This document shows, in pieces, positions 59,296-64,000 of a DNA stretch of 64,000 nucleotides. This stretch comes from Chitinophaga oryzae (GTDB taxonomy: Bacteria > Bacteroidota > Bacteroidia > Chitinophagales > Chitinophagaceae). Both the position numbers and the translations under genes were made by a program. Within the stretch, counting starts at the first letter, position 1; each line of letters begins with the position of its first letter. The notes under the pieces were generated by a model. It was not told where the DNA came from and did not search any database. It saw only the letters and a list, made by a program, of their open reading frames with translations. The DNA lies in NCBI RefSeq assembly GCF_012516375.2, contig NZ_CP051204.2, positions 1,240,001 to 1,304,000 on the forward strand, read 5' to 3'.

Positions 59296-59991
59296 ATGAA
59301 TGCAGCTTCTTTTTATGGGCAGGCCCCGAAACACCTGGTAGCGGTAGATTGTATCATCTTTGGTTTCGATGAAGGCAAGCTGAAGTTGTTGGTGATGAAG
59401 CGGAAGCTGGCTCCCATGGCCGGCGAATGGTCGCTGGTAGGCGGCTTTGTGCAGGCGGAGGAGAGTACTGACGATGCTGCGGCGAGGGTCCTCAAACTGA
59501 CCACCGGCCTGGAAGACATTTATATGGACCAGCTGCATTGTTACGGAGAGGTAAACCGTGATACGGGCGCACGCGTAATATCCGTGGCCTACTATGCACT
59601 GATCCGCATCAAAGACCATGACCGCCCGCTGGCCCAGGAACATGGCGCTCACTGGCTGGAGCTGCATGAAATCCCCACGCTCATATTCGACCACAACAGA
59701 ATGATCAACGACGCGCTGGTGCAACTGCGTAATAACGCGCATTTCCATCCTATCGGGTTTGAACTGCTGCCGGAGAAATTTACGCTGTCGCAACTCAGAA
59801 GCCTCTACGAGGAAATATACCAAAAGACACTTGATAAGCGTAACTTTAGAAAGAAAATACTGTCACTGGACGTGATGGAGAAGCTGGAGGAAAAGGACAA
59901 GACCTCCTCCAAAAAAGGCGCACACCTGTATCGTTTTGATCCCGCACGGTATGAGGTACTGATGCGGAAGGGACTGGTGTTCGAGATATAG
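59296..59991 (+). CDS. Nudix-related transcriptional regulator (NrtR/AraR type)
   Basis: A 231-aa protein: an N-terminal Nudix fold (about 12-150) and a C-terminal winged helix-turn-helix (about 155-231, PEKFTLSQLRSLYEEIYQK, KRNFRKKILSLDVMEKLEEK, GAHLYRFD). The Nudix box begins GGFVQAEES but the REUxEExGU part reads RVLKLTTGL, so the metal-binding glutamates are gone. This is the pattern of Nudix proteins turned into ligand sensors, such as NAD-related NrtR or the arabinose regulator AraR of Bacteroidota. The ligand is unknown; no sugar or NAD gene is next to it. Confidence 0.88.
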   Translation: MNAASFYGQAPKHLVAVDCIIFGFDEGKLKLLVMKRKLAPMAGEWSLVGGFVQAEESTDDAAARVLKLTTGLEDIYMDQLHCYGEVNRDTGARVISVAYYALIRIKDHDRPLAQEHGAHWLELHEIPTLIFDHNRMINDALVQLRNNAHFHPIGFELLPEKFTLSQLRSLYEEIYQKTLDKRNFRKKILSLDVMEKLEEKDKTSSKKGAHLYRFDPARYEVLMRKGLVFEI

Positions 59992-60075: not shown

Positions 60076-62004
60076 ATGATGATCCTCAGACGATATATGC
60101 TGTTGCATATGTGCTGGTTGTTGTTTGTTTTCCCGACATTGCTGCATGGGCAGCATAAAGAGATCGGCAGGATTAAATCACAACTGCCGCACATTGGCGA
60201 CAGCGTGACTTATGTAGACGCCCTTAACAGACTGGCGGCGGTATATCAGGCCTGCCAGCTGGACAGCTGCGGTCGTTATGCGTCCATGGCGAGGGATATG
60301 GCCGTCCGTATCGGTTACCCCTCCGGCAAGGCCCGGGCACTGCGCAACCTGGGAAACTACTATGCCCTCCGTCCTCATCGTTACCTCTCTTATCTCTTTT
60401 ATAACGACGCCCTGGAAGAAAGCCGTAAAGCCGGCGATTCGGTCAATGTATCACAGGTGATGATGAACATTGGCATCTATCACTATTTTACAGGTAAACT
60501 GGCTTCGGCCAACGATTACGTGGCACAATCGCTGAAGCTGACACGGCACCTGAAGGAAGACTCGCTGCACGCCCTCGGGCTGGGCAACTATTACGCCATC
60601 AACTATACCGACAGCAGTACCCGGGCTGCAGCCGCTACCGCATTGTCCGAAGCCACCACGCTGGCAGAACGTTACCACGATACCCGTGAACTGCTCTATA
60701 TCCGGTTGCTGCTGGCCAATGAAGACTACGTGGCCGAACGTTTTGAAGCTGCAAAGAAAAGAGTGCGGCAGGTGCTGGACACGGCCATCAGGGAAGGGTT
60801 TGCGTATTATGCCATGCGCGCCTCGATGGAACTGTCGGAGTACAAAAGCCGGCTCGGGGAGCCGGACTCGCTGGCACATCTTCAGGATGCTGTATCACAT
60901 GCCGTCGCGGGCGGATATATCGGGCTGCTGCTGCCGCAGGTAACACAACTGTACCATTATTTCCAGCAACAGAAAGACACGCTGCAGGCCGCCCGCTACA
61001 GCCGCATTGCACTGAATATCATGCAACAGCAACAGGACGATATGCAACAGGGAGAAATGGATTATATCGCCTACTCGCTGCAGGACCAGACACTGGATTC
61101 CCTGAAAATGCAGTCGGACCTGCAGCAGGCAGCGCTGCAAAAGACGAGGCTGGCGCAGCGCTACTCGCAATACCTGTTTATTTTCGTGGTGGCCATTATC
61201 CTGCTGCTGATCGTGCTCACATGGTTCCTGGTGCGCTCCTACCGCTCTTCCCGCCTCCGCTCCCAGCGCCTTGCCCGCGTGAAAACAGAGATAGCCGCGG
61301 CCAATGAAGTGCTGAAAAAAAACGATGACTTCAAAAATAAACTGATCTCGTTGATTGCACATGACTTCAGGACGCCGCTGTATAACATTATCGATATTAC
61401 CGGATTTGTCAATGAAGATATCCTCACCCCTGAAGATGCTACCGGCATGGTGATGGAAGTGGAGCAAACCGCCACCGCCACCCTGTCTGTTTTTGAAGAA
61501 ATACTCAGCTGGATGCGGACGCAGCTGTCGGGATTTGTATACCGGCCGCATTCCTTTGTGCTGGCCGATATGCTGGAGATGTCCGCCCGCAATGTGCAGC
61601 ATCTGATGCGCGAAAAAAATATCCGGCTGGAGCAACAGGTGCCCGAAGGGTTGACGGTGCAGGGCGACTTTGAGATGCTGCAGTTTATCCACCGTAATTT
61701 CCTGCATAACGCTATCAAGTTTTCCCCGGAGAATGGAGTTATAACGATAACGGCTATACGTAAAGATGGTTATGTTGAAGTTTTTTTCCGGGACCAGGGG
61801 CCGGGCATTGACCCGGAGGTACTGCCGGGATTGTTTACCTACAACAGTGAAAGCTATGCGCGGAAGGGGGCCGGCAAGGGAGCAGGCCTGGCATTGATCA
61901 TCTGTCGTGACTTCATAGATAAAATGAATGGAAATGCGGGCGCACAGAATAATGAAGAAGGCGGAAGCACCTTCTTTTACCGGGTGCCGGAAATAGACGT
62001 TTAA
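60076..62004 (+). CDS. TPR-containing sensor histidine kinase (intact)
   Basis: A 642-aa protein: signal peptide or anchor (MMILRRYMLLHMCWLLFVFPTLLHG), an N-terminal periplasmic region of TPR-like helices (about 25-355), one membrane segment (about 362-387), a short coiled coil, HisKA with the phosphoacceptor His429 in LIAHDFRTPL, and a HATPase_c domain. The ATPase motifs are complete: N box NFLHNAIKFSPENG (Asn545), G1 box FRDQGPGIDPEVL, G2 box GKGAGLALIICRDF. It is predicted to sense an envelope cue and to phosphorylate a response regulator, which is not in the window. A paralogue follows 15 bp downstream. Confidence 0.92.
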   Translation: MMILRRYMLLHMCWLLFVFPTLLHGQHKEIGRIKSQLPHIGDSVTYVDALNRLAAVYQACQLDSCGRYASMARDMAVRIGYPSGKARALRNLGNYYALRPHRYLSYLFYNDALEESRKAGDSVNVSQVMMNIGIYHYFTGKLASANDYVAQSLKLTRHLKEDSLHALGLGNYYAINYTDSSTRAAAATALSEATTLAERYHDTRELLYIRLLLANEDYVAERFEAAKKRVRQVLDTAIREGFAYYAMRASMELSEYKSRLGEPDSLAHLQDAVSHAVAGGYIGLLLPQVTQLYHYFQQQKDTLQAARYSRIALNIMQQQQDDMQQGEMDYIAYSLQDQTLDSLKMQSDLQQAALQKTRLAQRYSQYLFIFVVAIILLLIVLTWFLVRSYRSSRLRSQRLARVKTEIAAANEVLKKNDDFKNKLISLIAHDFRTPLYNIIDITGFVNEDILTPEDATGMVMEVEQTATATLSVFEEILSWMRTQLSGFVYRPHSFVLADMLEMSARNVQHLMREKNIRLEQQVPEGLTVQGDFEMLQFIHRNFLHNAIKFSPENGVITITAIRKDGYVEVFFRDQGPGIDPEVLPGLFTYNSESYARKGAGKGAGLALIICRDFIDKMNGNAGAQNNEEGGSTFFYRVPEIDV

Positions 62005-62019
62005 AAAGATACCGTCAGG

Positions 62020-63924
62020 ATGATAAAAACGTTGATGCGTAAAGGTTATATAGCAGCAGGCGTGATATTATGCTGTTTATTGTTGCCGCTGCCGGAAAGC
62101 AGCGGTCAGGCAGCTATATTGCCCCGTTTGCAGCGTGACCTGGCGCAACAGCATGACAGCGCCGGTTATGTATCGGTATTAGGCAAGATCGGCGCGTTGT
62201 ATGCCAGCGTCCACCTCGACAGCTCCTTCTACTATGCCCGCCAGGTGCTGGAAATCGCCAGCCGCCGCCGGGACCTTAAAGGCATGGCAGACGCCAATAA
62301 TATGCTGGGATGGTATTATACCGCTAAAACAGACTATAACGTAGGTATCCAGTATGCGTATAAGGCGCTGCTGCTCAATGCGCAGCTGGGGGATTCCGCG
62401 CAGATGGTCCGTTCGCTGAACATTATTTACGGCTGTTACAAAAACTCGGGCCACCCTGAGGAAGCCAATAATTATTTCTACCGTGCTTTTCATATGGCCA
62501 ACCGCCTCCCGCCGGATAAAGACTCTATGGCAGCCACCATGCTGGTCAACTACGCATGGCGTTTTTTCGGCGACAGCACTAAAACAGACTCTGTCCGCCT
62601 GGTGTTGCGCAGGGCCGGCGCCATCCTGAAGAAATATCCCGACAGCAGGGCTGCTTTTTATGTCGCCGCATTTGAGGCCGACCTCATGGTGCAGGCGGGT
62701 AAAGGGAAAGCGGCAGAAGAGCGCATCTACGCCCTTGCTGACCTGGCCCGGAAAAAAGGAATGCCTTACGTAGCCATGGACATGTATGGCCGGCTGTACG
62801 ACTTTCAGCGCCTGGGTTACTTTGCCGATTCCACCCGTTACCAGGAGCAGGCGTACGAAGTGGCGCGGCAATCCGCCAGCATGGAACTGAACCTCTACTG
62901 GCTGGGACGGTTGTACGATTATTACCGCCATCATCGGCAGCCGGAACGGGTAGTGTATTATGGTAATGAAATTATGCGGCTGGCGGCAAAAGACCGCTAT
63001 CACAACAATCAGCCTCAGGCGGCCTACATCGATTTTTTCCTGAAGGAAAAAAAACTGGAGGCGCTGTCCCTCTCCACCCGGATGCAACAGCAGGAGCTGG
63101 AAAAAGAACTGGCGGAGAAAAAGAACCGCTCCCTCATTGTGGCGGGGCTGCTGATCATCATATTCCTGTTGCTGGCACTGCTGACCAGCAGGTATCTGCA
63201 TTACCGCCGCTGGAAACAACAGGAAAACGCGCTGGCCTTCAGTTATGTGCAGCTGGCTAAAAACAATACTGCCCTGACGGAGAACGATCTCTTTAAGACC
63301 AGGCTGATCAGTATGCTGGCTACCGACTTCAGAACGCCGCTGCACCATATCATTGCGGTGGCCGACCAGCTGAAGACCGGTACGCTCACGCAACCGGAGG
63401 TGGTAAGCCTGTTAAAACAGATCGGTAATGCATCCCGGAAAACGCTGGACGCCTTTAACAACATCCTGAAATGGCTGAAGCTACAGTTGTCAGGCTTCGT
63501 TTACAAGCCGGCCACCACGGAGTTACTGCCGGTGATCGCGGAAGCGCTGGAGCCGCTGCAGACGGAAATCAGGGATAAGCAGCTGACCATTGTGAACAGG
63601 GTAGGACCACGGCTCACGGTGATTGCAGACAGGGAGATACTGCAGCTGGTGAATGTGCAGTTGTTGCAGGTGGCAGTCACCACCGCCCGGCCCGGCACCC
63701 TGCTCCTCATCTCCTCTTACGGGGAAAAGGGAAAAGTAACCGTACGGTTCATGGCCGATGGTGGCGCCTCCACCCGTAAGTTGCTCGAAGAACTGAAAGA
63801 CAAAGAACACAATATTTTCGCGTTAGGGATTATTATCAGCCGGGACTTTATGCAAAAGATGAAAGGAGGCCTCGTCGTGGAAGAAGAAGCGGAAGGGTTT
63901 CTCATGATGGAGTACACGATTTAA
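62020..63924 (+). CDS. TPR-containing histidine kinase paralogue, apparent pseudokinase
   Basis: A 634-aa protein with the same layout as its upstream neighbour: signal peptide (MIKTLMRKGYIAAGVILCCLLLPLPESSGQ), TPR-like periplasmic part, a membrane segment (about 373-395, SLIVAGLLIIIFLLLALLTSRYL) and a kinase-like region. But the phosphoacceptor His is Thr435 (LATDFRTPLHH), the N-box Asn is lost (VQLLQVAVTTARPG), the G1 DxGxG is replaced (FMADGGAST), and the G2 glycines are changed (NIFALGIIISRDF). The fold seems kept, without catalysis. It may act as a sensor or allosteric partner of the intact kinase, or as a phosphate-independent scaffold; that is inference. Confidence 0.9.
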   Translation: MIKTLMRKGYIAAGVILCCLLLPLPESSGQAAILPRLQRDLAQQHDSAGYVSVLGKIGALYASVHLDSSFYYARQVLEIASRRRDLKGMADANNMLGWYYTAKTDYNVGIQYAYKALLLNAQLGDSAQMVRSLNIIYGCYKNSGHPEEANNYFYRAFHMANRLPPDKDSMAATMLVNYAWRFFGDSTKTDSVRLVLRRAGAILKKYPDSRAAFYVAAFEADLMVQAGKGKAAEERIYALADLARKKGMPYVAMDMYGRLYDFQRLGYFADSTRYQEQAYEVARQSASMELNLYWLGRLYDYYRHHRQPERVVYYGNEIMRLAAKDRYHNNQPQAAYIDFFLKEKKLEALSLSTRMQQQELEKELAEKKNRSLIVAGLLIIIFLLLALLTSRYLHYRRWKQQENALAFSYVQLAKNNTALTENDLFKTRLISMLATDFRTPLHHIIAVADQLKTGTLTQPEVVSLLKQIGNASRKTLDAFNNILKWLKLQLSGFVYKPATTELLPVIAEALEPLQTEIRDKQLTIVNRVGPRLTVIADREILQLVNVQLLQVAVTTARPGTLLLISSYGEKGKVTVRFMADGGASTRKLLEELKDKEHNIFALGIIISRDFMQKMKGGLVVEEEAEGFLMMEYTI

Positions 63925-63949
63925 GACCACAGTGTTCCATTCAACGTAT

Positions 63950-64000
63950 ATGCGTAAGTGTTATTTCACTGCTTTACTGTCCCTGTTGGGCTGGCGCGTG
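63950..64000 (+). CDS. N-terminal start of a further secreted/membrane protein (partial)
   Basis: The ATG at 63950 opens MRKCYFTALLSLLGWRV, a plausible signal peptide, and the frame runs off the end of the window. It is 25 bp after the pseudokinase stop, so it may belong to the same operon, and could be a third paralogue. Seventeen codons are too few to tell. Confidence 0.4.
   Translation, partial: MRKCYFTALLSLLGWRV

Follow-up and report, generated by a model that had tools for sequence, protein, structure and literature searches.

A sensor histidine kinase with tetratricopeptide repeats is co-inherited with putative histidine pseudokinases in Chitinophaga

Here, we report a tandem set of sensor-kinase genes in Chitinophaga oryzae (RefSeq assembly GCF_012516375.2; the genome is 8.36 Mb in one contig, NZ_CP051204.2). 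The window, i.e., the whole stretch of DNA that was analyzed, is 64,000 nucleotides long (contig positions 1,240,001 to 1,304,000, forward strand). At its end lie gene A, which encodes a predicted catalytic sensor histidine kinase with periplasmic tetratricopeptide repeats (TPR), gene B, which encodes a protein of the same build without the catalytic motifs, and the start of a third gene, C, which resembles B. The features are as follows.

60076..62004, forward strand: gene A, predicted catalytic TPR sensor histidine kinase, 642 amino acids (aa), with an N-terminal signal (by eye), a periplasmic TPR domain (residues ~26-363), a transmembrane (TM) helix (368-386), a dimerization and histidine phosphotransfer (DHp) domain (~406-490), and a catalytic and ATP-binding (CA) domain (491-642).
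61360..61362, forward strand: codon of His429 of A, the predicted phosphoacceptor, His in 58/58 As.
61708..61710, forward strand: codon of Asn545 of A in the N box, Asn in 58/58 As.
62020..63924, forward strand: gene B, putative histidine pseudokinase, 634 aa, architecture as in A.
63253..63507, forward strand: DHp-like domain of B (residues ~412-496), the most conserved domain of B, the His position apart.
63322..63324, forward strand: codon of Thr435 of B at the phosphoacceptor His site.
63508..63921, forward strand: degenerate CA domain of B, with the CA fold predicted, the ATP-site motifs gone, and a shorter lid region.
63932..64000, forward strand: start of gene C, second putative pseudokinase, 631 aa, continuing beyond the window to ~65827 (L013:4932-6827).

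The stop codon of A and the start of B are 15 bp apart. A carries His429, Asn545, DQGPGI at 573 (G1 box), and GKGAGLALI at 600 (G2 box); B has T435 within MLATDFRTPL, no N-box Asn, FMADGGAS at the DxGxG site, and ALGIII at the G2 site, all in an intact frame. C is 48% identical to B, has Arg at the His position, and likewise lacks the three ATP-site motifs, i.e., the local set is a triplet of one kinase and two pseudokinases. With Pfam profiles, A matches HATPase_c at 65.9 bits, and for B this domain is absent from the list up to E = 10; both proteins match HisKA weakly (14.8 bits in A and 19.2 bits in B). No Response_reg match was found in A, B, or C by the Pfam scan, and the nearest receiver-domain matches in the genome (121, of which 120 are over the cut-off) lie 97 kb upstream and 173 kb downstream of the set; a linked response regulator is ruled out, as there is none within 97 kb. 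The initial annotation, made from the letters of the window, had described two tandem TPR sensor kinases of common architecture, the first with all catalytic motifs and the second without them in an open frame, a further open reading frame just after, and no response regulator nearby; it had also proposed the profile comparison. Its description agrees with what we find.

For comparison, B was searched in 79 Chitinophaga genomes (15 candidates scored per genome), with matches at E ≤ 1e-30 in 72 of them; five species of a named collection, C. varians, C. fulva, C. eiseniae, C. solisilvae, and C. qingshengii, are near relatives. Matches were grouped within 5 kb into 79 clusters (9 three-gene, 50 two-gene, and 20 one-gene), all of which were read, yielding 148 kinase-like frames with mechanical (longest-frame) gene starts. 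The working set consists of 58 A-B clusters (58 A genes and 67 genes of the B and C type, B/C hereafter) and 19 single kinases. A broken single gene of G064 (a genome 65% complete) was set aside, and so was the two-gene cluster of G065 (L115, G065:C1:2941493-2945322). The latter is a tandem of two TPR kinases from another branch, each with its His and ATP-site motifs, i.e., an undegenerated duplicate.

The phosphoacceptor His, the aligned N-box Asn, and the aligned G1 Asp are each present in 58/58 As; by pattern, independent of the alignment, DxGxG is found in 58/58 and a GxGLxL-type G2 box in 57/58. HATPase_c is matched at E ≤ 0.01 by 18/18 As scanned (of 58). Among B/C, the aligned Asn, the aligned Asp, and the GxGLxL-type pattern are each found in 0/67. 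Please note that the N-box counts rest on aligned columns, because the pattern search for this box was too strict and gave false blanks. The phosphoacceptor site of B/C is occupied by Asn (25), Arg (22), His (12), Thr (6), or Ser (2), so 55 of the 67 are without His. A DxGxG string occurs in 4/67, including G014, G038, and G039, which speaks against a complete loss of G1; in these three it is shifted by one residue from the aligned column, and neither the aligned Asn nor the G2 pattern is present in any of the four. The initial annotation had raised the possibility of orthologs with restored motifs: the His and the DxGxG string do occur in the 12 and 4 genes just counted, but none has the full catalytic set. 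Judged by sequence, A has what defines a catalytic HisKA histidine kinase, and B/C do not.

The residues around the lost His are nearly invariant in B/C (Ala at -1, 66/67; Asp at +1, 66/67; Phe at +2, 67/67; Pro at +5, 67/67; Leu at +6, 66/67), as are a Trp and a Gln later in the DHp domain (67/67 each). The His site itself takes five residues, with at least eight residue changes and at least four changes of His state on the tree. Near-invariant flanks around a variable site indicate that the DHp fold is under selection and its chemistry is not.

Single kinases of other Chitinophaga (loci L050, L052-L056, L059, L074-L077, L084, L086, L091, L097, L104, L105, and L121) keep the His, the N-box Asn, and the G2 box, and 18/19 have Asn for the G1-box Asp. 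This Asp is the adenine-binding residue, and Asn there is an unusual change. The 19 singles are mostly at another locus, many of them near genes resembling pyrH, tsf, and rpsB (by eye).

B/C form one clade, with Shimodaira-Hasegawa-like approximate likelihood ratio test (SH-aLRT) values of 98 for the kinase region, 98 for TPR alone (a tree that omits 10 short or broken rows), and 89 for the kinase region minus the catalytic columns; A forms a separate clade in the same trees (93, 97, and 97). Independent, repeated inactivation from separate As is ruled out by the single B/C clade in all three. Nor was any gene conversion or partner-specific similarity seen between A and B, and both are ruled out. 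The triplets of G010 and of the window's group (8 genomes) arose by independent expansions of B. Frames are open in all 58 A-B clusters. The ratio of nonsynonymous to synonymous divergence (dN/dS; estimated pairwise by Nei-Gojobori for 20 locus pairs, in some of which dS approaches or exceeds 1) of the second gene is 0.04-0.14 in 19/20 comparisons, and the remaining one gives 0.21 at a dS of just 0.02; the ratio is 0.04-0.18 for A, 0.06-0.12 for C in six comparisons, and 0.03-0.26 for the CA-like part of B where defined. The kinase region of B evolves 1.82 times faster than that of A and its TPR domain at about A's rate (slope 0.95), and the CA-like domain is the least conserved domain of B. 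With the kinase fold apparently retained, the catalytic residues gone, and purifying selection acting, B/C fit a histidine pseudokinase.

The two genes are inherited together. Within the A clade, 58/58 genes have a B after them, 67/67 B/C follow an A, and no single kinase falls inside. The spacing is operon-like, as 60/67 B/C starts (longest-frame) are -23 to +25 bp from the preceding stop. Distances among A genes and among second genes correlate with r 0.953 for the kinase region (58 pairs; at most 0.250 among 2000 permutations) and r 0.946 for TPR (51 pairs). In 53 genomes the set lies between a Nudix gene and fabH (fabH was seen in 52; one contig ends), with extra genes before fabH in a few; in the window, the gene upstream of A (59296-59991) encodes a protein that combines Nudix and NrtR-type winged-helix domains. 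Beyond the window, C is followed by fabH (opposite strand), then ruvA, and then a sprA-like gene of great length (named by eye from their translations). Five additional clusters are found elsewhere (in G010, G020, G029, G030, and G050), each with A and B and one with three genes. At these five loci no response regulator was recognized by eye in the start sequences of the neighbors. The extra pair of G029 (L079:4841-7346) is followed after ~70 bp by a gene resembling an extracytoplasmic function sigma factor (by eye), a possible output.

The set is absent from 26 genomes. At the corresponding site, reached from the ruvA side, Nudix and fabH are both seen in 24/26 (the stretch of G071 covers only 1.1 kb, and that of G002 shows no Nudix), a different gene occupies the site in a few, and no kinase of this family is present at E ≤ 1e-8 in any of the 26 stretches. 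The Nudix gene, which adjoins the set in the 53 main loci, thus persists without it and is not an obligate partner. A tree built from Nudix, FabH, and RuvA (77 rows) places all rows that bear the set in a single clade of 54 (SH-aLRT 96), where 52 have the set and two do not; the latter, G033 and G073, are single-contig genomes nested in the bearing clade that lack both A and B. Presence of the set takes three changes on this tree, most simply read as one gain and two joint losses, a count that by itself does not separate gain from loss. The initial annotation had proposed checking whether the pair is co-conserved and whether the second gene is often lost beside the first. Co-conservation holds for the 58 A-B clusters in the 79 Chitinophaga genomes. 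Wider searches sampled 344 genomes of the family, including some Chitinophaga, and 395 of the class, with 3 candidates scored per genome; no tandem kinase-pseudokinase pair was seen in the 26 loci (2 Chitinophaga) and 4 further loci examined, which with 1.5-kb flanks is weak evidence of absence, and some of the motif patterns applied to these loci were overly strict and left false blanks. Two of the four further loci have a second kinase-like frame nearby with catalytic-type motifs. As to loss, no A of the clade is without B; an older loss is permitted by the rooted tree described below.

Some Bs have almost no sensor. In one clade of six genomes (G012, G051, G057, G062, G063, and G078), B is 353-382 aa long and almost without TPR, being made up of an N-terminal signal-like stretch, a short remnant, the TM helix, DHp, and the CA-like part; the adjacent A is full length. 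In G074 (L122), most of the periplasmic TPR is missing from A (438 aa) and B (351 aa) alike, and the frames stay open. The six-genome group and G074 are on separate branches, so the sensor was lost in two lineages, and the short Bs are still constrained (dN/dS 0.07 for G012 vs G063). What all Bs have in common is the membrane-cytoplasmic part rather than the sensor. In two of these six genomes, a hybrid histidine kinase lies between the sensorless B and fabH (L060:2130-4298 in G012 and the matching place, L112, in G063); the G012 copy was scanned and has HisKA, HATPase_c, and Response_reg.

Co-inheritance, short or overlapping junctions, a DHp domain kept without its His, and a dispensable sensor are explained most simply if B is a subunit of A. 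We consider it probable that B and C serve sensor kinase A as non-catalytic regulatory subunits, B pairing with A by a contact that we infer. An A-like gene would have been duplicated in tandem to give B and C, ATP binding would have been lost before the sampled clade radiated, and the phosphoacceptor His later, more than once. B most likely pairs with A through the conserved DHp four-helix bundle and the adjoining membrane helix. In such an A:B dimer, ATP would be bound by A only, and where B lacks the His the dimer would carry at most one phosphate, on A. B would tune the kinase/phosphatase balance of A, in a direction that we infer; it could lock A in one state or render A responsive to a second signal. 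The response regulator would be unlinked.

Several observations weigh against this assignment. Traces of the ATP domain persist, as HATPase_c is matched at E ≤ 0.01 in 7/21 scanned Bs (of 67); despite these traces, no B has a full ATP site. The confidence of DHp is low in the structure models of both A and B (predicted local distance difference test, pLDDT, ~40-70). Mirrored A and B trees are also expected from common descent of adjacent genes, and since vertical descent alone gives a high correlation, the distances above back co-inheritance, not contact. Own A-B pairs are as alike as non-partners (DHp 0.443 vs 0.439), and just three columns are common to A and B but not to the singles, i.e., there is no partner-specific signature. 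The TPR of B, where present, is conserved like that of A (mean entropy 1.77 vs 1.86), so B usually senses something. Finally, in a rooted tree of 53 chosen rows, 8/11 singles used group with A as its sisters and B falls outside both (97/94), the singles of G005 and G049 are deeper still, and that of G020 is among the outgroup. If this root is right, the duplication predates the bearing clade, and those lineages kept the A-like gene and lost B. Alternatively, the fast branch of B may have been drawn to the root.

A bolder proposal is that A and B (or A, B, and C) form, across the genus, an obligate heteromeric receptor kinase, which would need its dead subunit as much as its live one. The dead subunit would be gained, copied, and lost with A, and it would act through its membrane-DHp part, because two lineages have deleted the sensor and kept the gene. 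We put this forward tentatively, with slightly more doubt than belief, and the rooted tree made us a little more doubtful.

Other roles of B deserve comparison with that of a regulatory subunit of A. B might be a homodimer whose repurposed DHp and CA parts bind a (phosphorylated) response regulator and relay its state to A or sequester it. The almost invariant DHp core beside the His site would suit such a reader, but no regulator is linked, and H+11 and H+15, which we take to be the helix-1 positions that usually set regulator choice, differ between the two proteins (D/N/S/E in A vs R/E/A/K in B, and F/L vs L/Q/R/M) and are more variable in B. This kind of action was proposed for the Caulobacter protein DivL (PMC4211667), and for B we find it unlikely. 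The phosphotransfer idea fares worse: A's CA domain would phosphorylate B in trans, as with RcsD, and a His retained in several branches of B/C is what one would expect; the Asn, Arg, Thr, or Ser of the other 55 and the repeated changes of His state rule it out as a general mechanism, and we consider it very improbable.

If B were instead an independent periplasmic co-sensor, its TPR domain would bind a ligand or partner, and the cytoplasmic part would be a passive leftover. The conservation and rate of this domain, which match those of A, favor that idea, but seven genomes keep a B almost without TPR and with the TM, DHp, and CA-like parts, and the CA-like part is itself constrained; we regard such a role as rather improbable. 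The initial annotation had suggested selection for a non-catalytic role of B, for example as a co-sensor or inhibitor: the selection is well supported, and the co-sensor version is weakened by the seven sensorless Bs. The decaying copy that it had also considered, a duplicate on its way out, is hardly credible. The fast-diverging kinase region and the poorly conserved CA-like domain would fit decay, but dN/dS far below 1, frames open in every cluster, and an A clade never without B rule it out.

Histidine pseudokinases are, to our knowledge, known from a handful of single examples. The 58 sets vary naturally in whether the His and the sensor are retained and in the number of dead copies (one or two), and some genomes lack the set altogether; together they offer a ready comparative series on the function of a dead kinase subunit. 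In databases the Bs are named "sensor histidine kinase," "HAMP domain-containing histidine kinase," or "hypothetical protein," and Bs named as kinases inflate the kinase counts of these genomes. If the heterodimer is true, the degree of asymmetry in a two-component receptor becomes directly testable.

Sensor kinases are generally taken as homodimers (PMC9491836). RocA is the pseudokinase partner of CovS in group A Streptococcus (PMC7028121, PMC7380576); like B/C it is a membrane protein of sensor-kinase descent with a dispensable His and a CA domain without kinase residues. RocA contacts and tunes the catalytic CovS, whereas B is tied to A by genetic linkage only. RocA, with six putative TM helices, is reported to act via the membrane domains at its N terminus (PMC7380576). 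In B, the signal is followed by a TPR domain and a single TM helix, and the N-terminal sensor can be lost with the TM, DHp, and CA-like parts retained. DivL is a Caulobacter pseudo-histidine kinase with Tyr in place of the His (PMC4211667) and acts on the catalytic kinase CckA (PMC12189002), which is the kind of control proposed for B. However, Tyr is found in 0/67 B/C, DivL has PAS sensors, and it still weakly binds an ATP analogue, whereas B is without the ATP motifs. A structural match to DivL (4q20) was ruled out as a sign of a DivL-like role, as it tops the kinase-part matches for the structure model of catalytic A too. In the RetS-GacS system of Pseudomonas (PMC12189002), one sensor kinase also controls another via heterodimers; RetS, however, is a hybrid kinase that is reported to siphon phosphate and dephosphorylate GacS, and B has no receiver match. 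FimS of Porphyromonas (PMC11053733) resembles A in its periplasmic TPR sensor and histidine kinase domain, and NF053520 (FimS) is the best NCBIfam match of the set (A 135.8, B 64.0, and C 57.5 bits, all far below its cut-off of 600 bits); it is proposed to be a homodimer in the FimS-FimR system, with no pseudokinase twin described in the accessible text. A CA-dead variant of ChrS in Corynebacterium (PMC9491836) still boosts signaling of its paralogue HrrS, but it arose in laboratory evolution by frameshift, whereas the dead form of B/C is old and conserved; the truncated form made no contact in a two-hybrid assay. The A-B pair was not recognized in searches of an open-licence library, subscription papers being outside that scope; one paper there that contains both Chitinophaga and pseudokinase (PMC9441710) is, judging from its abstract, about plant responses. 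Pairing of a kinase with a pseudokinase is already known in kind from RocA-CovS and DivL-CckA, and the Chitinophaga set would be a variant of it.

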